Below are positions 9,566-24,186 of a stretch of DNA of 64,000 bases, in pieces. Below the pieces are notes generated by a model. The model did not search any database and was not told where the DNA came from. It was given only the letters and a program-made list of their open reading frames with translations. Positions within the stretch are counted from its first letter, which is position 1. The number at the start of each line of letters is the position of its first letter. The translations under genes and the position numbers were made by a program. The DNA is from Bacteroidota bacterium (lineage in GTDB: Bacteria > Bacteroidota > Bacteroidia > Chitinophagales > BACL12). The stretch covers positions 1 through 64,000 of the forward strand of contig WGOA01000021.1 of the NCBI GenBank assembly GCA_016124275.1, given 5' to 3'.

Positions 9566-10819
9566 ATGCCCTACTTCTTTACTTCTGAGTCGGTGTCGGA
9601 AGGCCATCCTGACAAGGTAGCCGATCAAATTTCAGACGCCATTCTCGACCATTTTCTGGCCCAGGACCCCGAAAGCAAAGTGGCTTGCGAGACGCTGGTG
9701 ACCACGGGGCTCACCGTGTTGAGCGGCGAGGTTCGCTCCAAGGCATGGGTAGATGTGCAGAACGTGGCCCGCGACGTGATCCGCAAGATTGGTTATGTTC
9801 ACAGCGCCTATAAGTTTGACGCAGATGCCTGCGGGGTCATTTCCGCTATCCACGAGCAAAGCGACGACATCTACCAAGGGGTTGCCAAGCCCAGCGCTGA
9901 AGAGCAAGGTGCCGGAGATCAGGGAATGATGTTCGGCTACGCCACCAATGAAACGGCCAATTTTATGCCGTTGGCCCTTGATCTTTCACATGCGTTGTTG
10001 CGCGAACTGGCCACCCTTCGCCGGGAAGGCAAACTGATGCCCTACCTGCGCCCGGACGCCAAAAGCCAGGTAACCATTGAGTACAATGACGACAACAGCC
10101 CGCGCCGCATTGAAGCGGTTGTGGTGAGCACCCAGCACGACGACTTTGATTCCGAACCCAAAATGCTGGCCCGCATCAACAAAGACGTGCGTGAAATTCT
10201 CATTCCGCGTGTGTTGAAGAAGCAGCCAAAGGCCATCCAGAAGTTGTTTGGCGCTGACATCAAGTACCACATTAATCCCACAGGCAAATTTGTAATCGGC
10301 GGCCCACACGGCGACACCGGGCTTACCGGCCGCAAGATTATTGTGGATACTTACGGGGGGAAGGGCGCCCACGGCGGCGGCGCCTTCTCCGGCAAGGACC
10401 CGTCTAAGGTGGACCGCTCGGCCGCTTACGCCGCCCGTCATATTGCTAAAAACCTGGTAGCTGCCGGTGTGGCCGACCAGATTTTGGTGCAGGTCAGCTA
10501 CGCCATTGGGGTGGCGCAACCCATGGGTATTTTTGTGGATACTTATGGAACAGCCAAAGTTGATCAGTCGGATTCGCTGATCGCGGAGAAGGTAGGTGAT
10601 TTGTTTGATATGCGTCCAGGCATGATTGTCAAGCGGTTAAAACTCAAGAATCCCATTTACAGCGAAACCGCAGCTTATGGACACATGGGGCGCACTCCTG
10701 AAACCAAGACCGTAGAATTCAAGGCCAATGGCAAGGTGATCAGCAAAAAGGTGGAGACATTCACCTGGGAAAAGCTCGACTACGTACCGGCCGTTAAAAA
10801 GGCTTTTGGGTTGAAGTGA
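9566..10819 (+). CDS. metK: S-adenosylmethionine synthetase
   Basis: Joins methionine and ATP to form the methyl donor AdoMet. The 417-residue product starts directly with the family motif [17 protein letters not shown] (H14 and D16 in GHPDK). It also carries [12 protein letters not shown] near residue 115 and the phosphate-binding [16 protein letters not shown] region near 268-284. It has its own promoter and a terminator 35 bases after the stop, so it is a single-gene transcript. Confidence 0.97.
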
Positions 10820-10941: not shown

Positions 10942-12852
10942 GTGAAAAATAGACATATCTTATCTTTTGCTGTAATGGTTTCGCTTGCGGCTAATGCTTT
11001 CGCCCAGCCGTTTGCTTTCACAAAAGCGGATGCCGCTGTGGGCATTAGTCATGTTTACGGCAATACCAATTTTATGGGCGGGGGAATGGCCTGGTTTGAC
11101 TACGACAACGATGGTTGGGAAGACCTCTACCTGGCCGGAGGAAACCTGCGCGATGCCTTGTACCGCAATAATGGCGACGGAACATTCACCGAAGTTGGCG
11201 TGGCGGCAGGGCTGAACATTACCAATGGCTTTGGCACGCACGCAGTAACCACCGGTGATTATGACCGCGACGGCGACCGCGATGTGTTTCTGACGACGCT
11301 GAACAGTTGGCCCAACCACCTGCTGCGCAATAACGGGGATGGCACCTTTACGGATGTGTACCTTGAAGCGGGTTTTGCAGGTGAAGTGGCCTGGAGCTCT
11401 TCAGCAGCTTTTGGCGATTACAATCTGGACGGTTGGCTTGATTTGTACGTAGGAAATTATGTGGACAACATGGCCATCACTTATGACAGTGTTGGTATTG
11501 TCAATGGTTTTGCGCACGATTGCCGCCCCAATTGGCTCTACGTCAACAACGGAGATGGCACCTTTACCGAAGTGTCCGAATTGCTTAGGGCAGACGCTGA
11601 TACGGGTTGTGTTTTGGCAGTAACCTGGTCAGACTTTGATCGCGATCAGGACGTAGATATTCTCATCGCAAACGACTTTGGCGAGTTCATTGTGCCCAAT
11701 CAATTGTTGCGCAATGACCAGCCAGGCGCGTTCCAGGATGTCAGCGTTACAAGCAACGCCAACGTTGGAATGTACGGCATGGGCATCGCTATCGGAGACT
11801 ACGACCATGACGGCGACCTGGACTATTACGCCACCAACATTGGGTTGAACCACTTGTACGTTAACAACGGCGATGGCACATTCAGTGATGGTACTGCCGC
11901 CGCTGGCGTCGAAGACATTTGGGTGCGCGATGGCTTTTACACGGTTGGCTGGGGAGCCGCCTTCGTGGATCTGGACAACGACACCTGGCAGGACCTCTTA
12001 GTCAGCAACGGCCACATTCCCGCCGCACCGTTTATCCGCAATGACATCAACAATCCCAACCGGATCTTTCGCAATAATGCCGATGGCACCTTCACCGATG
12101 TTGCCATGGCATCCGGCATGGATGATGTGGGCGTTGCCCGCGGATTGGGCGCTTGCGACTACGACAAGGACGGGGACATGGACGTTGTTTTCGGCAACAT
12201 TGACAGCTACTATACCCCCGGTGAAGACAAAGTTTCTTTTTACCGCAACGACCTGAGCGGCGGCGGCAACTGGCTTGGCGTTAAATTGGTCGGCGTGGTC
12301 AACAACCTGGATGCATTCGGCGCAAACGTAGTCATTAATGCAGGCGGTCAATCCTGGATTGATGAGGTCAGCGGCGGCTCCAGCCACGGTTCCCAGAGCG
12401 GTTCTATCCTGCATTTTGGCCTTGGTTCTGCTGGTTTAGTGGACGAGCTGACCGTCTATTGGCCGGGTGGTCGCACACAAGTCTTGGAAGATGTGCTTCC
12501 CAATCAGATCATCACCATAGTAGAGGATACTTCTGGAATTGTAGAGCCCGTTGGCCTGCCTGGTTTTTCTCAGGGGCTGGGAATGCAGGTGCGCCCCAAT
12601 CCGGTGGTTTCCGATACGCGCATCAGCCTTGAGCTGCCCGCTGCGGTACCTTCCGCCCGCGTCACGGTAATGGATCCTTCCGGCCGTTCGGTGGCGTTGG
12701 TGCACGCTGGTGCGCTGGCTGCAGGCCGGAACGACTTTCTGTGGAATGGCACCGACGCCTCCGGGCAGCGGCTGGTACCGGGAACCTACCTCGTATCCGT
12801 TGAACTGGGCGACCAGCAGCGCTTTGTGGAAAGGGTGGTGGTGGTGAGGTAG
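10942..12852 (+). CDS. FG-GAP/VCBS repeat and ASPIC/UnbV protein with T9SS C-terminal domain (CRTAC1-like)
   Basis: 636 residues. A GTG start at 10942 gives a complete signal peptide ending AANAFA; the next in-frame ATG (10975) would remove its charged end. Seven calcium-loop repeats of the form D-x-D-x-D-G are visible (DYDNDGWEDLY, DYDRDGDRDVF, DYDHDGDLDYY and others), predicting a beta-propeller. An ASPIC/UnbV domain follows (about 445-515), then a FlgD-like T9SS type A domain with RPNPVVSDTRI and a final VVVVR. Export through T9SS and attachment or release at the cell surface follow from family knowledge. The ligand is unknown. It ends 7 bases before a compositionally different gene. Confidence 0.88.
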   Translation: MKNRHILSFAVMVSLAANAFAQPFAFTKADAAVGISHVYGNTNFMGGGMAWFDYDNDGWEDLYLAGGNLRDALYRNNGDGTFTEVGVAAGLNITNGFGTHAVTTGDYDRDGDRDVFLTTLNSWPNHLLRNNGDGTFTDVYLEAGFAGEVAWSSSAAFGDYNLDGWLDLYVGNYVDNMAITYDSVGIVNGFAHDCRPNWLYVNNGDGTFTEVSELLRADADTGCVLAVTWSDFDRDQDVDILIANDFGEFIVPNQLLRNDQPGAFQDVSVTSNANVGMYGMGIAIGDYDHDGDLDYYATNIGLNHLYVNNGDGTFSDGTAAAGVEDIWVRDGFYTVGWGAAFVDLDNDTWQDLLVSNGHIPAAPFIRNDINNPNRIFRNNADGTFTDVAMASGMDDVGVARGLGACDYDKDGDMDVVFGNIDSYYTPGEDKVSFYRNDLSGGGNWLGVKLVGVVNNLDAFGANVVINAGGQSWIDEVSGGSSHGSQSGSILHFGLGSAGLVDELTVYWPGGRTQVLEDVLPNQIITIVEDTSGIVEPVGLPGFSQGLGMQVRPNPVVSDTRISLELPAAVPSARVTVMDPSGRSVALVHAGALAAGRNDFLWNGTDASGQRLVPGTYLVSVELGDQQRFVERVVVVR

Positions 12853-12859
12853 ATGCGCT

Positions 12860-13909
12860 ATGAAATCAATCTTGGTTAGTTTGTTAGGATTCTCATGGCT
12901 TTGCATTGCTTTTACAGGGTTCAACTCCCACAGCCCAACTCCATATATACTTCCTGAAATAGGTGAAATAGGTGAATTGAATATTCCTCTTGATAACCCT
13001 ATGACAGAGGAGGGAGTTGCATTGGGAAGACTATTATTTTATGAAGAGTTGTTGTCTTCTGATGGCAGCTTCAGTTGTGGCTCATGCCATAAACAGGAGT
13101 TGGCATTTACGGATGGCTTAGCTCGAGCTATCGGTTATAGGGGAGATACACTGGACAGGAACACCATGACATTGGTCAACCTGGCCTGGCAACAAGAGTT
13201 TTTCTGGGACGGCCGGGTTAAGACGTTGGAGGCACTGATTGAGGTACCGATTACCGATCCCCGTGAAATGGGGCAGGATACCGTTGTTTTAGTACAATTG
13301 TTGCAGAATCATGAGCATTATCCGCGGTATTTTGGCCAGGCATTTGGTTCCGAAACGGTCACTTTTGAGAACGTTTCAAAAGCAATTGCACAGTTTCTCA
13401 GGACAATAGTTTCTCCAGGGATAAAATTGCCGGATAGCTTATTAAACATTCCACCAGACAATGTGAGTGAAACAGAATTTGTGTCCTCTCAGTTTTATGA
13501 TAACACAATGAGAGCAGTATACTTTCGATTAGCAGATATGTGTGGATCTTGCCATAGTAGCCAAGTGTATGGTGGCCTTTCAACTAATTTCAATTTGGTA
13601 AACTCGGCAGATAGTTTGCTAAAAGTCCCCCCATTACTAAACATATTGTTAACAGGCCCATATATGCATAAAGGCCAATTTAGTTCATTGGAGGAAGTAA
13701 TCAATCATTATGACCAGCATATTGAAGCTTTAGCTTATCTGAACAGAAAGGGAAACGAGGCGCCGATGGTGAGCAAGTTGAGCGCTTATGATAAGCAGTA
13801 CCTTCCTGAATTTTTAACTTTGTTTGTAGATTCAAATATACTATTAAATGATTCTTATGGTAATCCCAAAGAAGCCGCAGACTATGAATGGCCGGCATTT
13901 TTGCATTAA
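12860..13909 (+). CDS. Di-haem cytochrome c peroxidase, MauG/CcpA family
   Basis: 349 residues with an N-terminal signal sequence. Two haem c sites, CGSCH at 73-77 and CGSCH at 228-232, and the conserved PYMHKGQF (M269/H270) segment followed by LEEVINHYD identify the bacterial peroxidase/MauG family. Members act in the periplasm, reducing peroxide with cytochrome electrons or oxidising protein side chains. The gene is AT-rich compared with its neighbour (about 38-47% GC in counted 60-base stretches versus about 63% just upstream). It lies only 7 bases after the ASPIC protein, so it may be co-transcribed, but its base composition suggests separate ancestry. There is no nearby cytochrome c or methylamine-dehydrogenase gene. 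Confidence 0.9.
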   Translation: MKSILVSLLGFSWLCIAFTGFNSHSPTPYILPEIGEIGELNIPLDNPMTEEGVALGRLLFYEELLSSDGSFSCGSCHKQELAFTDGLARAIGYRGDTLDRNTMTLVNLAWQQEFFWDGRVKTLEALIEVPITDPREMGQDTVVLVQLLQNHEHYPRYFGQAFGSETVTFENVSKAIAQFLRTIVSPGIKLPDSLLNIPPDNVSETEFVSSQFYDNTMRAVYFRLADMCGSCHSSQVYGGLSTNFNLVNSADSLLKVPPLLNILLTGPYMHKGQFSSLEEVINHYDQHIEALAYLNRKGNEAPMVSKLSAYDKQYLPEFLTLFVDSNILLNDSYGNPKEAADYEWPAFLH

Positions 13910-14232
13910 TTTTTTTGCCACATTAAGACAAAGCAATATGTTTTAATTATTTAAATTTTTTATTTAAGTAGAAAGTATTGAAGAAGACCAAGGGTCAATT
14001 GCCAATAATTTTTATCTCTTTTGAAATAGAAATCACTTCCTTATCTTTAGGTATGATAATCTCTTCTACCACTAAGTTAATTTAACTGGCTGTGTAAGTA
14101 TTTGATTATCATTCTGTTGAATTTTAGCTCTTCAATCAAGCCCTATTGAGCAATCAGGATTCTTAATCCCATTACTTAAAATCCCAAATCGAGTATTCAA
14201 CAGTCCTTCTCTCATCACTCACGCATCACTTC
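13910..14232 (+). other. AT-rich intergenic region before the giant surface-protein gene
   Basis: 323 bases with long A/T runs and no credible ORF. The only signal recognised is a promoter-like pair at 14019-14049. No clear terminator follows the peroxidase gene. Confidence 0.6.
14019..14049 (+). promoter_or_regulatory. Candidate promoter for the giant protein, TTTTG-N18-TATCTTTA
   Basis: TTTTG at 14019-14023 and TATCTTTA at 14042-14049 (one mismatch to TAnnTTTG). This would give a leader of about 180 bases. Confidence 0.4.
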
Positions 14233-17200
14233 ATGAATCCACGTCTTCTACTCACACTTTTCCTGCTTTGGTGTCAATTGGCCTTAGTCTCGCAGACTGT
14301 CAATGTTGAGATTGATGGTGATGATTTGTATTATTCTGAGTCAGGTTGTAGCGATTGTTGGGCAGGGCCAGATACAAGATGGCGCTCTCGTGTTACACTT
14401 AACTCGACAAATTACGACTGGAATGTTGACCGAGATGATATCTCAACTTGCGGTTGGCAGGGGATTACCAATTATTCTTGGGTAAATCCGGTTGGCTCAA
14501 ATGCTTTGGACGCAATAAGCCTTTCATTCGATGGCTTTGAAGAGGACGATTGGCCTTGTGTTTTCTTTGGGAGTGATGATGCAATTTGTGGAGGATATGC
14601 CAACCTAAGGACCATTAACAATATCTGTGACAATAATCCGTACCAGTGGAATTATTTTACAGAGACACGCACCTGCTCAGGTGGAGATGGCTCTGGAGAA
14701 TATCGTGTATATTGGTCATATTATTGGTCGTACACCCAAGCGCCTACCATAACTCAACAACCTGACGCCGCTGGGTTGGGTGGATCCTCACGCAATGTTT
14801 GCGAGGGAACTCCATTAACGCTCCAAACCACATTCGCTACAAATGATTGTGGAGGCGTTTGGGCCAGGCACATCAAATGGCAATCGGCTACAAGTTCCGG
14901 TGGTCCATGGACAGATATCGGGGGGGCTACTTCAGCATCTTATGTTCCCCCGCAAACTATAGGAACGCGGTACTACCGTTGTTTGGCAACTTCAAACAAT
15001 TCAGCTGTATTTACTTCGCTCACTACTACTTCGAATACGGTTACGGTGACCTATTATTCCAATGCGGATAATTTTTGCGCTGCTCCAGATTGTGATTTTA
15101 TCTACATAGCAACTTTTGGAACTGATGCCCCGGGCAATGGAGGTCCTAACAATCCCTTCAAGACACTTGGGTATGTCTTAAATAACTACAGCACAGTTGG
15201 CGGCGGTAAAACACACATTCGGATGGAGGGGAAAAGTTCACCTTCATCATCGGATTATCTTGAGAATGTGATTATTACCATGCGAAGCAATCTTTTTATA
15301 GAAGGAGGTTTTGAGGTATCTGGGGCGGCTCCTCGCTCTTGGAAGAAGAATTCTACTTTCCATACACTTTTATCCTGCAGTGGTGCGGAGTCAATCAGTA
15401 CTACAGTGGGCCACCTTATGGGGATAAAGGCGGTAGGCGTAGACAACTGGACCTTACAGGATTTAAGAATTACTACTGGCGCAACTACAGCTAAGACTTC
15501 CTTGGGTCATGGGTATTCTAATATCGCAGTTTATGCAAATGATTGCGAGAATTATAATATAACTCGTTGTGCCATTACGTCTGGGGCAGCATCTGCAGGC
15601 AATGGAGGTGCGAGTGGTAAAGGTGGAAACCCAGGCGTCCAAGGTAATACAGGTGGTAACGGTGGTTGCGATTATTATTGGGGTTGTGGTTCAGCACCAG
15701 GTGGCGGAGGTGGAGCTGGCCGTGAGGGTGGCGGAGGAGCAGCAACCGGGCCATTGGCTGGCGGAGTGGCCATTGGCACAAATGGGGCTGGTGGCGGTGG
15801 TGGAACAGGTGGTAATGGTGGCGCAGGGAGTGCCGGACGGTGTTCGGGGACGAACACTGGCTCTGGTGGTAATGGTGGCACAGGAAACAACGGAGCCAGC
15901 GGAGGAGCTCCTTCAGCTGGCAACGGTGGAACTTCAGGTGGTGGCGGTGGTGCCGGCAATTCTGGAGTAAGCGGAAGTTGCAATAGTGGTAACAACGGTG
16001 TTTCAGGATCTAATGGTGGGGATGGTGGCGTTGGCACAGCCGGCACTACACCAGTCGCCGATGCTTACGCAAGTGGTTATTTCACACCAACCGCCGGTAC
16101 CAATGGCGGTGGGGGTGGTGGCGGTAAAGGCGGTGGCGGTGGTGAAGGTGGAAGTGGTTCCACCGACTCAGGAACCTGTGATCGCGATGGGGGCCAAGGC
16201 GGTTCAGGCGGCGGCGGCGGTGGCGGCGGCGGCGCTGGTGGGTATGGCGGCGGCGGCGGCGGCGGCTCTTTTGGAATTTTTTGCTGGGGAGGCAATGGAA
16301 CATTAACGAATCTTAACCTCAATACTGGTAATGCGGGATCTGGCGGATCCGGCGGATCTGGTGGCTCAGGCGGCGGCGGCGGCGGCGGTAGGGGGATTGG
16401 TACTGGAAACTGTGGAGGTGGAGACTCGGGCGAGGGCGGTGGTTCGGGCGCTGGAGGAACAGGAGGCACTGGTGGTGCAGGTGGAACCGGCAGGGCTGGT
16501 GCTCGCTATGCAATTGCCACTCAGAACAGTGCTGTGGTCACGCAAGTAAACTTTACCGCAACGGTTACCCCCAATTCTTCTACTTCAGGTGGAGCTGTGA
16601 CAAACCCTGCTTCATTAATCGTAGATATTACCCGATCCAACACTCCGGGCAAAGCATGCATCAATTCAGAGATAGATGTGGCCAAAGGAACAGGTACTTG
16701 GGCACTGCCAACAGGGTTGACTCTGGTCAACGATGTAACGGCTTCCACAACATCTTACATCACTGCTACTGCAGCTGTAAAAATCACGACCAATACAGCC
16801 GGTGTTTATGATTTAGTACTCAGCTCTGGGACGTATGATAACTTTTTGACTGTTTCAAATGTACCGAGAACCCTTCCCGTTATTAGTCCGGCTACCTCCT
16901 CAATCTGTGTGGATGGAACAGTAGCCTTGACGGTCAGTGACAGTTATGATGATCCTTTGGAGTATGAATGGCTGGTTTATACAACTTCACCAAGTTCCAC
17001 AACATTTAGTTCTACTTCCGAAAGTTTTACCACACCCGCATTTACTGCGACGGGGACGTACACGGTTCGATACCGTGAACGGCATGAATGTTGTGGTTGG
17101 AGTCGTCCTGTTTTCGCAACGATAACTGTAAACAATCAACCAAGTGCCCATACATTAACTCCAGTGCCCAATGCGACTTCAGTCTGTGTTGGTAGCACGC

Positions 17201-20200
17201 CTTATGCCACGTTCGCTGGGGCCGGCGGTGGCGGCGGGACAGTTACCGATGAGTACGAAATCAGCACGGATGGAGGCGATACCTGGACAAGCTATACGGT
17301 GTCATCAGGCACTGGAGCTTCCATCACTACTACGGGGTTGTCTGGTGAAACAATAGTTTTAAGGACGCGCCGGACGGCAACTGGAAGTGGTTGTGGAGAC
17401 AGCGATTATAACCAGCATAGCTGGCAGGTTCTTCCAGATCCAATTGCTCCATCGCTTGATTCGGCTACACCAGCTTCAGCTACCGTAGTTTGTACCGGGG
17501 CTCTCGTTAATGCTGCCATTTTGCCGGGCACGGATGGAACTGGGACATGCACAGATTCCTATCAGTTTACCGTCACAGGAGGCACCCCTTGGAGTACATA
17601 CACTCCATCGGGGAACATTACTGCTGCCGGGGCAGGGACCAACTATGTACAAGTTCAGACCCGCAGGGTTTGCGATGGCAACGGTTGTGACGGTACCGGT
17701 GAAACTTTTGCAACCATCGCCCAATGGACCGTTGTAACCGATCCGATAGCGCCGACATTAAATACAGCAACACCGACCAGTGGAACCACTGTTTGTGTGG
17801 GCGCAACTGTAAAAGCTACGGCGAATGCAGGGAGTTCTGGAACAGGTACATGCAGTAATGAATACCGATTTACAGTTGATGGTGGAGCCAATTGGAGTAC
17901 CTACACACCAGGCGATGATATCACTGCAGTTTCTGCAGGCACCAATCGCATTCAAGTCCAAGCCAGAAGGGTATGTGATGGCAATGGTTGCGATGGAGCT
18001 GCAGAAACGTTTGCTACCATTGCGCAGTGGACAGTTAACAATGATCCAACGGCACCAACGGTACTTTCCATTTCTCCTCCTTCCGGATCCACTGTTTGTT
18101 TCGGTACCTCGGTAGCCGCATCTTTCCAATTGTACACAAATGGCACGGGAACTTGCGTAAATGAATACCAGTACACGACAGATGGAGGTGCGTCTTGGGA
18201 TCCATACACGGCCGGATCGTCCATTGTGCCCGATAATGAAGGTACCGGGGCAATACAAATTCAAACGCGAAGAGTTTGCGATGGATTAGCCTGTGATGGT
18301 TCCGGCGAGACTTTTGCTACAGTTGCCAGTTGGAATGTGCTTCCGCAGATCAATTTTGGAACTGTTGATAATACGGCAGAAGCTATTTGCTATGGTGAAG
18401 ACCCATCCGTGATCACCTTGAGCGCTGCACCTTCTGGCGGCAGTGGAGTGTTCGAATACCAATGGGCTTTTGTGAACGCAGCCGTTGGCTGTCCTGCTGG
18501 TACAGGTCTGTCCGGGTTCACTGAAATTTCGGGGGCCACAAGCTCGAGTTATGATCCGCCTGCATTGACTACAACAAGAACATACGCTGTGCGAGTCGAT
18601 CCAGTCGGCAGCCCAGATTGCGCTGTTGAAACATGGGCCACTAATTGCCGTGTCATAACAGTTCAACCAAACGTGAACTTTGGCACCATTAGCGGAACAG
18701 CTGAAACTATTTGTTTTGGGGGGGATCCTGGAAACATCGCATTTACTACCTCCCCCTCTGGGGGCAGTGGCCTCTTTTCGTACCAATGGTACTCACAATC
18801 TGGCGCTGTAGGTTGCCCAACAGGAACAGTAACGACAGGATGGGATCTTATTTCTGGTGCCACGGCAGCTGCTTATGACCCTCCATCTGGTTTGGGTGCA
18901 ACCACTACTTACGCAGTGCAAGTCAATGAGAATGGTACCCCAGATTGTGGCCCCCCTACCTGGGCTTCAAACTGCCGCGTTGTCACGGTAGTTGCGGATC
19001 CTGCGGCACCATCCGCCACAAAATCACCCAATGTTGCTGGGGTATGCGAAGGAACTACTCTGACGTTAACCGGCGTTACGGACATGGGTGGCGGCACGGG
19101 TACCTGCAACATCGAGTACCGATTCAATACGGGTTCCGGATTTGGATCCTGGGGTGCCTCCGTCCCATCCTTCGCAGCGGTTGAAGGAACCAATGTCATC
19201 GAAGTGCGCAAAAACTGCTCCGGCAACGGTTGTGATGCTGCGACAAACTCTTTCTTCTGGACGGTTGCAGCCAATCCCACTGTTGCAAATGCTGGTGCAG
19301 ACCAGGGCAACTGTGCAGGTGGAAGCTTCACGCTTGCAGGCAACGTTCCAACGGTTGGAAGTGGAGTTTGGTCCGTACAAAGTGGAACGGCTACTGTTCC
19401 TGTGCCTACTTCTGCATCTGCTTCGGTTACAGGGGTACCGCTTGGCACCAGCGCAACTCTGCGCTGGACCATAAGCAGCGGTGCTTGCCCGGCAAGTTTT
19501 GACGAAGTTGTCTTAACCAATGAAACAGCACCATCCGCTGCTGTCATTACCTCGGCAGATTACACCTGTGCCGGCTCAACCTTTGAGCTTGTTGGGGCCG
19601 CCGCAGCGGTCGGGGAGGGTTCATGGAGCATTATTGCAGGTTCTGGAACGCTCACTCCTGACTTGGCGTTGCCAAGGCTGGCTGATCTGAGCGGGTTGAC
19701 CATGAACAGTTCAGTCACCGTGCAATACACCGTCAGCAATGATCCAGGTAGCTATTGCGCCGATGAAACGGTACAGACCACTCTGAATTACCTGACAGCG
19801 CTTGCCACGGCTGCTGATCCCAACGTAACGTGTACGCCCATTCCAAGCGGCGGCACCCAGTTCTGGGCCTCTGACGATGGTGAAAAGCTCTACGTCGGCT
19901 TGAATCCCAATGGCAACAACATCGGCGCCACAACGGTTGAACTTCCTGGCTCGGACGCATTTACCACCCCCGGTTCGTATTGGGGTGGCTTAGGGGATGT
20001 GCCGAACGGTGCTTATGGCGCAGGTGCCTCTAACCCAGCCCGGATGCCTTCTTCAAGCATGACCTGTCCGGATGAACTGTTTGTCGAAGACATTTTCGAA
20101 ATTGATGTAACCACTCAGCCGACGTTAAATGATCCGGTGTTGACACTCTATGTCCCCAAGACTAAGTGGGATGATTTTGTCGATAACGGCAACACGTGGC

Positions 20201-21003
20201 TGGACGCCGTAGCCGGTCGTAGAAGCAGTTACGATGCATGCTATAATGGTTTCCCGGCTCCAAGTGCTGCACCAACTACTAGCAATGTGGCCGTAACCGG
20301 CTACCACGATGATGGCCGCAGTCTGCACACCGTCAATAGCGTAACTTATGATGCGGGTGGAGATTTCTACGCCATAACCTTTACTACGGATCGTTTCTCC
20401 GGCTTCGTGATTCACGGATCGGGTTCCGGCGATCCGCTCCCGGTGCAGTTGGTTTCGTTTACCGGCCAGCATGTAAACGGCGTGAATGAGCTAAACTGGC
20501 TGACAGCCTCTGAGGTGAATGTATCGCACTTCGAAGTGGAGCGCTCCTCAAATGGCAAGGATTATGAAATGCTGGGTGCCGTTGAGGCAGCTGGCAACAG
20601 CACCGAGCCTCGCAATTACTCCTTCATGGATCGGAACCTGCATCCAGGGGGCTTGTACTATCGCTTGAAGATCGTAGACCAGGACAACACGTATGAATAC
20701 AGCGATGTTGTTTACCTGAGCACGAACAACGGTGTGGCCATCAACCAGTACATCAACATTGTCCCGAACCCCTTCACAGACAAGTTTGAGGTGCAGTTCT
20801 ACCAGGCGCGGAGCGGTCAGTATCAGGTAGTGATCACTGATATAGCTGGCCGTCCGGTTGTGGAAGTCACGCGTCAGGGTTCGAAGGGCCTCATTGCCGT
20901 TCCGCTGGACTTAAGCGCAGAAGCAGCCGGTTCCTACTTGGTACAAGTAATCCGCGAAGACGGCATGCGCTTGATGCGCCAGGTGGTTAAATCAACAGAT
21001 TAA
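14233..21003 (+). CDS. Giant T9SS-secreted protein: beta-helix with glycine-rich block, Ig-like repeats, type A sorting domain
   Basis: 2256 residues. Order: signal peptide ending LALVSQ; a Cys/Trp-rich N-domain (about 25-175); an Ig-like domain (about 176-280); a right-handed beta-helix-like segment (about 290-450); a glycine-rich block at about 453-760 of G/GG/N/S/A repeats; a return to beta-rich sequence; Ig-like repeats at about 965-1685, including three of exactly 101 residues and two of exactly 108; further Ig-like domains; then FTGQHVNGVNELNWLTASE and a T9SS type A domain from about 2165 containing IVPNPFTDKFEV. It is expected on the cell surface, perhaps as an adhesin; that role is inference. 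The central two-thirds is AT-richer than the end. A terminator follows. Confidence 0.85.
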   Translation: MNPRLLLTLFLLWCQLALVSQTVNVEIDGDDLYYSESGCSDCWAGPDTRWRSRVTLNSTNYDWNVDRDDISTCGWQGITNYSWVNPVGSNALDAISLSFDGFEEDDWPCVFFGSDDAICGGYANLRTINNICDNNPYQWNYFTETRTCSGGDGSGEYRVYWSYYWSYTQAPTITQQPDAAGLGGSSRNVCEGTPLTLQTTFATNDCGGVWARHIKWQSATSSGGPWTDIGGATSASYVPPQTIGTRYYRCLATSNNSAVFTSLTTTSNTVTVTYYSNADNFCAAPDCDFIYIATFGTDAPGNGGPNNPFKTLGYVLNNYSTVGGGKTHIRMEGKSSPSSSDYLENVIITMRSNLFIEGGFEVSGAAPRSWKKNSTFHTLLSCSGAESISTTVGHLMGIKAVGVDNWTLQDLRITTGATTAKTSLGHGYSNIAVYANDCENYNITRCAITSGAASAGNGGASGKGGNPGVQGNTGGNGGCDYYWGCGSAPGGGGGAGREGGGGAATGPLAGGVAIGTNGAGGGGGTGGNGGAGSAGRCSGTNTGSGGNGGTGNNGASGGAPSAGNGGTSGGGGGAGNSGVSGSCNSGNNGVSGSNGGDGGVGTAGTTPVADAYASGYFTPTAGTNGGGGGGGKGGGGGEGGSGSTDSGTCDRDGGQGGSGGGGGGGGGAGGYGGGGGGGSFGIFCWGGNGTLTNLNLNTGNAGSGGSGGSGGSGGGGGGGRGIGTGNCGGGDSGEGGGSGAGGTGGTGGAGGTGRAGARYAIATQNSAVVTQVNFTATVTPNSSTSGGAVTNPASLIVDITRSNTPGKACINSEIDVAKGTGTWALPTGLTLVNDVTASTTSYITATAAVKITTNTAGVYDLVLSSGTYDNFLTVSNVPRTLPVISPATSSICVDGTVALTVSDSYDDPLEYEWLVYTTSPSSTTFSSTSESFTTPAFTATGTYTVRYRERHECCGWSRPVFATITVNNQPSAHTLTPVPNATSVCVGSTPYATFAGAGGGGGTVTDEYEISTDGGDTWTSYTVSSGTGASITTTGLSGETIVLRTRRTATGSGCGDSDYNQHSWQVLPDPIAPSLDSATPASATVVCTGALVNAAILPGTDGTGTCTDSYQFTVTGGTPWSTYTPSGNITAAGAGTNYVQVQTRRVCDGNGCDGTGETFATIAQWTVVTDPIAPTLNTATPTSGTTVCVGATVKATANAGSSGTGTCSNEYRFTVDGGANWSTYTPGDDITAVSAGTNRIQVQARRVCDGNGCDGAAETFATIAQWTVNNDPTAPTVLSISPPSGSTVCFGTSVAASFQLYTNGTGTCVNEYQYTTDGGASWDPYTAGSSIVPDNEGTGAIQIQTRRVCDGLACDGSGETFATVASWNVLPQINFGTVDNTAEAICYGEDPSVITLSAAPSGGSGVFEYQWAFVNAAVGCPAGTGLSGFTEISGATSSSYDPPALTTTRTYAVRVDPVGSPDCAVETWATNCRVITVQPNVNFGTISGTAETICFGGDPGNIAFTTSPSGGSGLFSYQWYSQSGAVGCPTGTVTTGWDLISGATAAAYDPPSGLGATTTYAVQVNENGTPDCGPPTWASNCRVVTVVADPAAPSATKSPNVAGVCEGTTLTLTGVTDMGGGTGTCNIEYRFNTGSGFGSWGASVPSFAAVEGTNVIEVRKNCSGNGCDAATNSFFWTVAANPTVANAGADQGNCAGGSFTLAGNVPTVGSGVWSVQSGTATVPVPTSASASVTGVPLGTSATLRWTISSGACPASFDEVVLTNETAPSAAVITSADYTCAGSTFELVGAAAAVGEGSWSIIAGSGTLTPDLALPRLADLSGLTMNSSVTVQYTVSNDPGSYCADETVQTTLNYLTALATAADPNVTCTPIPSGGTQFWASDDGEKLYVGLNPNGNNIGATTVELPGSDAFTTPGSYWGGLGDVPNGAYGAGASNPARMPSSSMTCPDELFVEDIFEIDVTTQPTLNDPVLTLYVPKTKWDDFVDNGNTWLDAVAGRRSSYDACYNGFPAPSAAPTTSNVAVTGYHDDGRSLHTVNSVTYDAGGDFYAITFTTDRFSGFVIHGSGSGDPLPVQLVSFTGQHVNGVNELNWLTASEVNVSHFEVERSSNGKDYEMLGAVEAAGNSTEPRNYSFMDRNLHPGGLYYRLKIVDQDNTYEYSDVVYLSTNNGVAINQYINIVPNPFTDKFEVQFYQARSGQYQVVITDIAGRPVVEVTRQGSKGLIAVPLDLSAEAAGSYLVQVIREDGMRLMRQVVKSTD
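15589..16512 (+). repeat. Glycine-rich low-complexity block in the giant protein
   Basis: About 920 bases dominated by GGN codons, encoding roughly 308 residues of imperfect GG-N-GG, GGAG and GGSGG units with runs of up to nine glycines near 16211-16265. Occasional Cys, Trp and charged residues break the pattern. The opposite strand reads as open proline-rich frames only because of composition. Such tracts in beta-helix proteins may form polyglycine-II helix bundles. Confidence 0.9.
17440..18348 (+). repeat. Three tandem 303-bp Ig-like repeats
   Basis: Units at 17440-17742, 17743-18045 and 18046-18348, each exactly 303 bases (101 residues). Each starts P-x-A-P, contains GTGTC and ends in RRVCDG-x-x-CDG followed by ETFAT and a W. 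DNA differs at many third positions while the protein pattern is kept, so the duplications are old. A related but more divergent unit precedes them. Confidence 0.9.
18349..18996 (+). repeat. Two tandem 324-bp Ig-like repeats
   Basis: Units at 18349-18672 and 18673-18996, each 108 residues, starting INFGTVD and VNFGTIS. Both share the AEAICYG/AETICFG, PSGGSG and YDPP motifs and end WATNCRVITV or WASNCRVVTV. Confidence 0.88.
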
Positions 21004-21067
21004 GTGAGACAATTCCGCTGGGGACGCTAAAGAATCCGCTCCCAACATATTTTTGGCCATCAACCAC

Positions 21068-21106
21068 AAACAGCCGACTCCTTACCGGGTCGGCTGTTTG
21101 CTTTCA
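21068..21106 (+). terminator. Hairpin terminator between convergent genes
   Basis: AAACAGCCGAC (21068-21078) pairs perfectly with GTCGGCTGTTT (21089-21099), followed by GCTTTC. The T tract is modest. The A/T ends of the stem make it usable from either side, fitting its place between the giant gene and the minus-strand gene ending at 21192. Confidence 0.65.
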
Positions 21107-21191
21107 AACTGTAGGGAGGGAGTACGGTGCGGCCAGAGAAGCGAGTAGCGTCGCGACTCAGGCTGTGTTTACGATCAGGGGGGGCGGCTGA

Positions 21192-23048
21192 CTAGCGCAA
21201 GAGCGTCAACGCGCCGGTATAGGTCCAGCCTTGTTGACCGTCAAAAACGCGGAGTATATAGAAGTACGTGCCATCCGGCAGGTTGTCGCCGTTCCAGTCG
21301 TTCTGGTAGGCATCGGTTCGAAAAACCTCGTGCTCCCAGCGATTGATGATCCAAATTTCGTGCTGGTCAAATGCTTGTAAAGCGGTTATGGTCCACTCGT
21401 CGTTGAAGCCATCGCCGTTGGGGGTAATGACGTCCGGGATAAACAGATCGGGGACTGTGGGCAGAACTGGCACGTCGCTTACGCGAACGGTTATCCAGGC
21501 CTGGCTGCAAAGGCCCGCTTCATCGCAATGTTCGTAGCGGAATCGGTCCAGCCCGGTTTGCTGACCTGCGGTATAGGTCAAGCCATCTGCATTCCGTGCA
21601 ACTTGGCCTAAAAGCGGATCGGTGCGGAGGACAAAGCTGCTCGGGTTCCAGTGGCCATTCCCCGGTTGATCGTTGAGGAAGATGGCAAGCGACATGCTAT
21701 CGTTCACAAGAACGTTGTATTCGTCATCCTGGCATGCCGGCGTTGAGCAAATCACCTTTAAGCGTACTTCAGCAGTATCGCATAGGCCATTTTGATCGCA
21801 CACGGAGTAGCGAAAGGAGCTTTCGCCGCAGGTAAGTGGAGCCGGAGTGGCTAACAGCATACCGCTGATGCCGTCCAGGACTACAGCGCCAGCGGACCAG
21901 GCATCAATCAATTGAAGCGTGGAAGGCACCAATGGGGAGGAACCGCTGGCATCATTGGTCAGGACAGCAATGGAAACCGCTGTTGTCCAGGGCGTTTCGA
22001 TAACATCGTTTACCAGGTTAGGCCCTACCGGATCCACTGCTTCCATCACGCGCACTTGCACCCACGTGGTATCGCACAGTCCTTCTTCATCGCAGATTCG
22101 GTAATTGAAACTGTCCAATCCATAGAAGCCCGGCATGGGGGTGTAAAGAATTTCACCGGTGGCTGGTTCCAGGTTCGCTGAGCCCCCCGTTGGAGCAGAA
22201 GTGAGGGTTAAAGACCCGGGATCAAGAATGCCGTCCATGTCAATATCGTTGTCCAGGACAGCAACCAGAACCGCACTGAGTTCTGTGGTTACGCCGGAGT
22301 CAGGCACGGCCAAAGGCGCAATGTAGATGCGTTCCACGGACACAGCATCAATGAAGTAGTAGGCCATGGCCGAAGCCCAGGGTTGAAGATCTGTCCGGGT
22401 CGTACTTGCATCTCCTTGAAAATTGCCTAAAATGAACGCTTGTTCACCTCCGCTGGCTTCGAATTCACCATATACAGGGGTCCATCCGGATAGGTTATCA
22501 ATAGGCAGGCCGGAGTATTCTACTTGTGGAACTAAGCTGTAGGGAGGCAGCCCCAACGCGGGATAGTCCGTTGGCGCTCCTGTCCAAGGTTCAACGCTGT
22601 CGGTCAGATACATGCCCAGATTATCTGTGGCATAGCGGTAGGCGTCCCCTACACTGAGCATAAAACGGATGGCATAAAATTTACCACTGACCAAGGGTTC
22701 GCTCAATTGGCCCTTGATGTACTCCCGGTAATTGGCAAAACCGCCATAGACGTTGGTGTCTACGTAAGATACCAGTCCTGCATAGGCATTCCCATCAAAG
22801 GCTGCCTCTGTCCCAAACCCGTTTGACGGAGTGGAAATGGATGGAAAGGTGGTGCAACTGTGAAAGTAATCAGGCGTACCTGGCGTCGGTTTTCCCCAAT
22901 GTGTGGCCCGATTCATTTGATCGATGAACGTGGGGCAGGTGGTATAGTCTTCAAAGCTTGGATTCAATACTAAATTCTGCCCTTTGGCAGGTTGAATGAC
23001 TCCTAAAAAGCTTAAAATACACCATGAATATGCGAGCAACCGATCCAT
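21192..23048 (-). CDS. Secreted protein with tandem Ig/cadherin-like domains and T9SS type B (gliding-motility) C-terminal domain
   Basis: 618 residues from the ATG at 23048, chosen because MDRLLAYSWCILSFLG gives a standard signal peptide ending AKGQ; the longer in-frame start adds a non-signal stretch. Residues about 25-240 resemble the lectin-like N-domain often found in such proteins (NLVLNPSFEDYTTCP). Three domains of the DVIE/VLxND type with YxxCDExGLCD motifs follow. The end is the type B sorting domain: FIPDVITPNGDGFNDEW, WNGDNLPDGTYFY and a final LTLLR. Such proteins are exported by T9SS and stay on the surface. It is convergent with the giant gene. Its exact function is unknown. Confidence 0.87.
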   Translation of the reverse strand: MDRLLAYSWCILSFLGVIQPAKGQNLVLNPSFEDYTTCPTFIDQMNRATHWGKPTPGTPDYFHSCTTFPSISTPSNGFGTEAAFDGNAYAGLVSYVDTNVYGGFANYREYIKGQLSEPLVSGKFYAIRFMLSVGDAYRYATDNLGMYLTDSVEPWTGAPTDYPALGLPPYSLVPQVEYSGLPIDNLSGWTPVYGEFEASGGEQAFILGNFQGDASTTRTDLQPWASAMAYYFIDAVSVERIYIAPLAVPDSGVTTELSAVLVAVLDNDIDMDGILDPGSLTLTSAPTGGSANLEPATGEILYTPMPGFYGLDSFNYRICDEEGLCDTTWVQVRVMEAVDPVGPNLVNDVIETPWTTAVSIAVLTNDASGSSPLVPSTLQLIDAWSAGAVVLDGISGMLLATPAPLTCGESSFRYSVCDQNGLCDTAEVRLKVICSTPACQDDEYNVLVNDSMSLAIFLNDQPGNGHWNPSSFVLRTDPLLGQVARNADGLTYTAGQQTGLDRFRYEHCDEAGLCSQAWITVRVSDVPVLPTVPDLFIPDVITPNGDGFNDEWTITALQAFDQHEIWIINRWEHEVFRTDAYQNDWNGDNLPDGTYFYILRVFDGQQGWTYTGALTLLR

Positions 23049-23391
23049 ATTAATATCGCGTCTAAACGTTACGTTCCAACCATTAAAGCTCAAGGTGCTA
23101 AACATGGCATTTACTTGCTATGCCGAACCTGCGGCGTTTGTGACGGTATGTCCGGGCGAAATGCGGTATCGCTGAAAACAGCGAAGCCATTAAATATTGC
23201 GATTTATTTGTTTGATAAATCGTTGAAATAAAGCGACTTGATAGATTGGTGCCGTGCTGCTTAATCATGCCCATCCACGCTTGCGTAATAGAGATTATGG
23301 TTGAATATTGCGCAACCTTTGGCCAAACCAGGACCATTTGAAGCAGCCAGCAGTAGCAATAAACAAGGGGACAAGCCCTATTTTTACGGCA
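23049..23391. other. Intergenic region between divergent T9SS-B gene and thyA
   Basis: 343 bases without a credible gene. It contains two hairpin-forming inverted repeats, TCGCTG-AAAA-CAGCGA at 23169-23184 and CGATTTAT-N7-ATAAATCG at 23200-23222. A TATTTTTA box at about 23378-23385 lies immediately before the thyA start. Confidence 0.6.
23200..23222. promoter_or_regulatory. 23-bp inverted repeat (possible operator)
   Basis: Perfect 8-bp arms CGATTTAT and ATAAATCG around a 7-base spacer. It lies between divergent genes, 152 bases from one start and 170 from the other. It has no T tract, so it is not a typical terminator. Confidence 0.4.
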
Positions 23392-24186
23392 ATGCGGCAA
23401 TACCACGACTTGCTCCAACGCATCCTGACAGAAGGGGAGGAGAGAACCGACCGGACCGGCACCGGCACGGTAGGCATTTTTGGGCACCAGATGCGCTTTG
23501 ACCTCCAAAAGGGCTTTCCGCTGGTGACCACCAAAAAGCTGCACCTGCGTTCCATCATCCACGAATTGCTCTGGTTCCTGCAAGGAGACACCAACATCCG
23601 ATACCTGAAAGAGCACGGCGTGCGCATTTGGGACGATTGGGCCGACGAAAACGGCGACCTCGGCCCGGTTTATGGCCACCAGTGGCGCTCCTGGCCTACG
23701 CCCGACGGTGGAACGGTTGACCAGATCCAACAAATTCTGGACACGCTCCAAACCCGGCCAGACTCGCGGCGCATGATTGTCAGTGCATGGAATGTGGCTG
23801 ATGTGGGACGAATGGCCCTTCCCCCGTGCCACTGCCTTTTCCAGTTCTATGTGTCGGGTAACCGACTTTCCTGCCAGCTCTACCAGCGCAGCGCGGATGT
23901 TTTCCTGGGCGTGCCGTTCAACATAGCATCGTATGCGTTGCTTACCCTGATGGTTGCGCAAGTTTGCAATTTGCAGCCGGGCGAATTCATTCACACATTT
24001 GGCGACGCTCATCTTTACCGAAACCACCTGGACCAGGCCCGGCTTCAGCTGACCCGCGACCTGCGGCCGCTGCCTGAAATGGTGCTCAACACGGAGGTTC
24101 GCGATTTGTTTGCTTTCCGCTACGAAGACTTTACTCTGCAGAACTACAACCCCCATCCGCACATCCCTGCAGCGGTATCGGTATAG
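23392..24186 (+). CDS. thyA: Thymidylate synthase
   Basis: Methylates dUMP to dTMP using 5,10-methylenetetrahydrofolate, which becomes dihydrofolate. From the ATG at 23392 the protein is 264 residues, the same length as E. coli ThyA, and the nucleophile falls at C146 ([11 protein letters not shown]) as in E. coli. RTGTGT (about 21-26), [16 protein letters not shown] and the substrate loop [14 protein letters not shown] are intact. A longer in-frame start at 23308 was rejected because it adds an unmatched 28-residue extension. It is followed 27 bases later by folA, which recycles its dihydrofolate product. Confidence 0.97.

Follow-up and report, generated by a model that had tools for sequence, protein, structure and literature searches.

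The question raised by this locus is whether the long glycine-rich block inside a giant protein is a folded and maintained part and, if so, what such a part would do. The gene lies in the window, by which we mean the whole stretch of 64,000 nucleotides that was analysed, and its features are collected in Table 1. A first-pass annotation had given both the reading frame (14233-21003) and a block of about 308 residues at 15589-16512, and both assignments were confirmed, the frame coding for 2256 aa and the block comprising 308 codons for residues 453-760. Its description of the block had to be corrected in two respects. The glycine content, which had been put at two-thirds, is 150/308 or 48.7% when measured over the whole block, and 68% is reached only in the densest 50 residues. 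Furthermore, the block is not one single glycine-rich piece, because a rung of about 24 residues, SFGIFCWGGNGTLTNLNLNTGNAG, divides it into two loops.

Table 1. Features of the giant gene, numbered from the first letter of the window.
Feature	Residues	Position	Strand	Basis
Open reading frame of the giant surface protein, 2256 aa		14233..21003	+	Read from sequence
Probable Sec signal peptide (MNPRLLLTLFLLWCQLALVS)		14233..14292	+	Sequence read directly, cleavage site by eye
Predicted beta-helix segment before the block	285-452	15085..15588	+	Alignment A2; family signature for homolog searches
Rung 1 (YSNIAVYANDCENYNITRCAITSGAAS region), last repeat ahead of loop 1	~427-452	15511..15588	+	Similarity of rung 1 and rung 2
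Glycine-rich loop 1, non-glycine inserts between glycine-rich stretches	453-678	15589..16266	+	Glycine pattern, homolog comparison
Insert CDYYWGCGSAP, varies among block types		15667..15699	+	Type A alignment; read from sequence
Insert TTPVADAYASGYFTPTA, landmark Y..P kept across block types		16045..16095	+	Alignment A1
Insert TDSGTCDRD, type A marker		16162..16188	+	Alignments
Rung 2 (SFGIFCWGGNGTLTNLNLNTGNAG, ~24 residues), splits the block	~679-702	16267..16338	+	Rung repeat test; strands in both low-confidence models
Glycine-rich loop 2, length similar in most homologs	~703-756	16339..16500	+	Family alignment
Beta-type segment after the block, conserved C.NSEI motif	757-880	16501..16872	+	Family alignment
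About three Ig/PKD-like repeats of ~100 aa (DPxAPxL...VCxG...RRVCDG)		17440..18342	+	Limits by eye
T9SS type A C-terminal sorting domain	2177-2252	20761..20988	+	TIGR04183, PF18962

The division into two loops was examined with a repeat test across the family. Rung 1 is similar to rung 2 in register with z=15.1 over 60 homologs, and z=5.2 is obtained over 41 homologs without the residues that had been used to pick rung 2; the similarity between rung 0 and rung 1 has z=5.1. Because rung 1 resembles rung 2, the long loop sits between two solenoid repeats. A third rung after loop 2 was unsupported by the same test, in which rung 2 was compared with rung 3. In the homologs where rung 2 could be located, the length of loop 1 is 160-261 residues, and rung 2 and loop 2 together span 68-98 residues, or 44-46 in three of these homologs. 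Alignment A1 shows that in the landmark Y..P of the insert TTPVADAYASGYFTPTA the P is invariant and the Y nearly invariant. Of the 62 blocks compared, 33 have an even and 29 an odd number of cysteines, which does not point to full cysteine pairing inside the block. In the blocks that we call type B (L015, L016, L021, L024, L026, L027 and L055), a cysteine-rich sequence CNxFGCNAxGC ... GTCCxCxCG is recurrent. The family alignment and the rung repeats support the beta-type character that had been read in the sequence flanking the block, but Pfam does not; there, the pre-block segment (21 members, E<=0.1) had no match other than a weak one to Ig_7 in two members.

Homologs were collected with this pre-block segment, residues 285-452, as a query at E<=1e-3, and 58 of the 299 genomes from the window's order gave matches, at up to five places per genome. 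The giant-protein family is patchy in this order; a profile built from 24 pre-block segments (A2) found it in 2 of 396 genomes across the phylum, in 1 of 6 genomes of the window's own family and in 7 of 7 genomes of another family of the order. The position of the block is constant, and in all 62 of the 62 non-redundant homologs with enough downstream sequence it comes after the same beta segment. A contig profile search with an almost pure-glycine pattern yielded one relative. A PHROG search gave no match for the family, PDB sequences gave nothing convincing (a weak tail-spike hit has E=0.16), and neither the phage and plasmid collections nor a single-sequence scan of viral contigs gave a match.

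The spacing of glycines was compared with composition shuffles. In the window block, the coincidence of glycines has z = 6.9 at lag 3 and z = 5.5 at lag 6, and at both lags z is larger than 2 in 62/62 homolog blocks; lags 1, 2 and 4 exceed this value in 8%, 15% and 2% of blocks, respectively. Runs of at least four GXX triplets cover 70.5% of the block (shuffles 32.5%, maximum 55.2%), and GGX runs of at least four triplets cover 24.8% of it against 1.9% after shuffling. This period-3 arrangement would fit three residues per turn, as in polyglycine II (PGII) bundles of the GGX type (PMC10216338, PMC13243192). The positive control, gp38 of phage S16, which is a solved PGII sandwich, has a lag-3 z of only 0.48, and thus the periodicity is compatible with PGII and is no proof of it. 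A collagen-like triple helix was also considered and was set aside, proline making up 2% of the block.

Period-3 glycine in every homolog block is not expected from a flexible, disordered low-complexity spacer, produced by replication slippage and having no folded structure, although the glycine richness itself, the small tandem repeats inside the block and the differences in its length among homologs would all agree with such a spacer. The spacer is also disfavored by the steadiness of loop length and the invariance of landmarks within a type, and slippage by the finding of only three short and imperfect tandem arrays in the window gene. Selection on amino acids gives a further argument against it. 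Within a type the block is under strong purifying selection, with dN/dS of about 0.03-0.13 in the eight within-type pairs having dS < 1.4, and between the window and homolog L012 the block has dN of 0.28 against 0.54 and 0.44 for the flanks. On the basis of the low within-type dN/dS and of a block dN lower than that of the flanks, the block is a maintained part of the protein and not filler. The very low confidence of the structure models could be quoted in favor of disorder; AlphaFold2 on a single sequence and on two sequences gave mean pLDDT of 33.3 and 32.4 for the modelled segment as a whole, with its beta part. Since the beta part was modelled as poorly as the block, these models are no evidence of disorder, and with such values throughout they speak neither for nor against PGII. 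Both models place paired strands at the rungs, which lends weak support to these repeats. Taking these points together, we regard a disordered spacer as improbable.

Comparisons between closely related genes revealed that the block has been exchanged as a cassette, with the remainder of the protein retained. The genes L097 and L098 have 93.3% DNA identity over 6.7 kb that end shortly ahead of the block and 83.3% identity over 1.4 kb beyond it, and across the block only two 45-nt repeat matches can be aligned. In the pair L100/L101, the identities on the two sides are 82.0% and 79.6%, and the alignment gap coincides with the block. At the protein level, one pair stops aligning at the edge of the block, and the other does so about 40 or more residues ahead of it. 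High flank identity goes with low block identity in L020/L065, where the flanks are 80% and 90% identical and the non-glycine block identity is 18%, and in L026/L030, where the corresponding values are 86%, 90% and 23%. The converse was found for the window block, which aligns with that of L012 (68% nt over 716 bases) and with that of L028 (66% nt over 455 bases), while the segments before and after it do not align in either case. Phylogenetic tests agree with these identities in that the flank and block trees conflict, although the p values carry less weight because the clades were chosen with the pairwise identities already known. The clade of the window, L012 and L028 is rejected by the flanks (p-AU 4.5e-7) and supported by the block (100/97.5), and block data reject the flank-supported clades {L026, L030, L055} (p-AU 1.5e-6), {L020, L064, L065} (p-AU 3.5e-6) and {L011, L012, L049} (p-AU 9.9e-7). 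Slippage does not give a shared type in distant genes together with different types in close relatives. The set contains one genome per species, so that exchange within a species is not visible in it, and many of the genomes are drafts.

Draft genomes call for attention to metagenome assembly, because mis-joins are possible in low-complexity DNA, many of the genomes are fragmented, and the gene in L097 and in L100 reaches a contig end or the edge of the retrieved sequence. That the swaps are artefacts of this kind is nevertheless very improbable, because the pairs are independent, L098 and L099 are in the interior of long contigs (85 kb and 538 kb), the reading frame is uninterrupted across the block, and one pair stops aligning about 40 codons ahead of the low-complexity DNA. 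In L034, L037 and L068, which share one block type, nucleotide identity falls at mid-block to 31-33% in one 60-base window and returns to about 80% or more in the stretch after this drop. Exchange or rapid divergence may also affect segments shorter than the full cassette. Neither the two-loop build nor the cassette exchange had been seen in the first-pass annotation, and both are stronger points than the PGII fold.

The protein that carries the block is probably exported by the type IX secretion system. The T9SS signal noted earlier proved to be a type A sorting domain, with TIGR04183 at E=2.4e-7 and PF18962 at E=5.4e-7, both over cut-off, and the machinery is encoded in the same genome, where the PorU and SprA families score 1340.7 and 2521.9 bits, again over cut-off. 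The N-terminal Sec signal appears plausible by eye, and a location of the protein at the cell surface would follow from this set of features. The sorting family was reached in only 1 of 4 homologs scanned. The Ig-like arrays that had also been reported after the block stand in part; the repeats are visible by eye near residues 1070-1370, but no Ig family was over cut-off in a Pfam scan of the window protein. Among the homologs scanned, L105 is the only one in which Ig_7, PKD_5 and PKD_6 are over cut-off. Three large open reading frames elsewhere in the window's genome (G000:C34, C66 and C6; L002-L004) match the C-terminal ~200 residues of the giant protein with 29-34% identity, and this match leaves out the glycine-rich part.

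We also looked at the neighborhood of the gene. Four genes occupy positions 10942-23105, between those for SAM synthetase (9566-10819) and thymidylate synthase (23308-24186). Their products are an FG-GAP/ASPIC protein, a di-haem cytochrome c peroxidase, the giant protein and a T9SS protein of the CHU_C type that has Big_9 domains. In relatives, identity is 73-78% for thymidylate synthase but only about 34-42% for the best matches of the peroxidase. This interval is possibly a variable region. When an empty site was searched for in the nearest genomes, the contig in the genome of the same genus was found to end within the neighboring CHU_C-type gene.

For the structure of the block, we propose that a predicted right-handed beta-helix has the long glycine-rich loop inserted between two successive repeats, with the short loop following the second of these. 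Most likely, the two loops would run to and fro and pack together as a single rigid bundle of PGII helices on the side of the beta-helix, and the non-glycine inserts, which often contain cysteine, would be the turns of the bundle. The swapped module would then most likely present a changeable binding surface, and the protein would be an adhesin or recognition protein. By a narrow balance of probability we favor this reading, namely an exchangeable PGII-type recognition module on a giant T9SS surface adhesin.

A PGII bundle could instead have a mechanical or physical job, such as a stiff stalk, a matrix scaffold or a contact to ice or surfaces, with no specific recognition involved. One such bundle is the snow flea antifreeze protein (PMC13243192), and large PGII sandwiches tolerate changes of size (PMC10216338). 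We consider this account unlikely, because the module has been replaced in nearly unchanged genes, as diversifying recognition would give, and a scaffold would need no different sets of inserts. The module may also be exchanged because it is a target of phages, grazers or neighbors, so that a swap allows escape, or because it serves kin recognition and not the binding of a substrate. Its exchange as a unit and its presence in 1/6 genomes of the window's family would suit this idea, and an exchange of domains and alleles is reported for surface proteins of P. gingivalis, a T9SS bacterium (PMC5266723), which is a precedent for the present exchange. The picture expected in the sequences is the same as that for substrate binding, and the arguments for escape or kin recognition are indirect; we give this reading a rather low probability, comparable to that of the mechanical role.

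The proposed recognition module can be compared with gp38 of Salmonella phage S16 (PDB 6F45), in which turns of 18 and 77 residues in a five-ring beta-helix form a polyglycine sandwich (37 glycines among 73 residues), and whose hypervariable tips are linked to host range (PMC6851490). By the title of Trojet 2011, cited in that paper, gp38 is a modular determinant of host specificity. In gp38 two glycine-rich extensions leave the turns of a beta-helix, as is predicted for the block; both alternate glycine-rich motifs with variable segments, and both are about half glycine (37/73 vs 150/308). Unlike gp38, the block is about four times longer, has its long loop first, shows a strong period of three that is absent in gp38, and belongs to a T9SS bacterial surface protein instead of a phage fibre tip. 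The comparison of the block with the gp38 sequence gave BLASTP E=2.5, a family-profile score of -21.7 bits and an hhalign probability of 0.2%; with no detectable homology, this is a resemblance and not membership of the gp38 family. More generally, sequence searches found no homology to PGII proteins. The earlier proposal of a PGII bundle on a T9SS-exported adhesin therefore holds in part: period-3 glycine, the two-loop plan, purifying selection and the T9SS genes speak for it, but homology to gp38 was not found and gp38 itself is without the lag-3 signal.

Several other glycine-rich proteins are similar in some features. Mycobacterial PE_PGRS proteins also have GGX-type repeats over hundreds of residues, and modelling has represented them as PGII sandwiches with a modular size (PMC10216338). 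The block differs from these in lying inside a beta-solenoid-like protein, in its cysteine-bearing inserts and in T9SS export, and Pfam and NCBIfam scans found no PE domain in the giant protein. The snow flea antifreeze protein is likewise a glycine-rich PPII/PGII helical bundle (PMC13243192), the fold that we predict here, but it is a small stand-alone animal protein, neither embedded in a beta-helix nor exchanged. The glycine-rich domain of ALK/LTK, as cited in PMC13243192, is a PPII bundle in a receptor, but this receptor is a eukaryotic kinase. Ig/PKD-like repeats are shared by the window protein with the SprB-like and CHU-type giant T9SS surface proteins, for which our literature search, itself incomplete, found no description of a glycine-rich exchangeable module inside a beta-helix.

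PGII bundles are rare among solved structures, and the authors of the S16 study were aware of just four others with similar motifs (PMC6851490). A cellular PGII family, with several copies in some genomes, would help us learn how glycine-rich chains fold rigidly, and the cassette exchange makes the function testable, because it can be asked whether binding follows the module. In its fullest form, the proposal is a family of adhesins with an interchangeable gp38-like PGII sandwich, several times the phage size and reached independently, whose specificity is changed by a swap of the whole module; we hold this tentatively, its chances being somewhat less than even. If it is true, phage tips and bacterial surface proteins would share one plan for changeable recognition.
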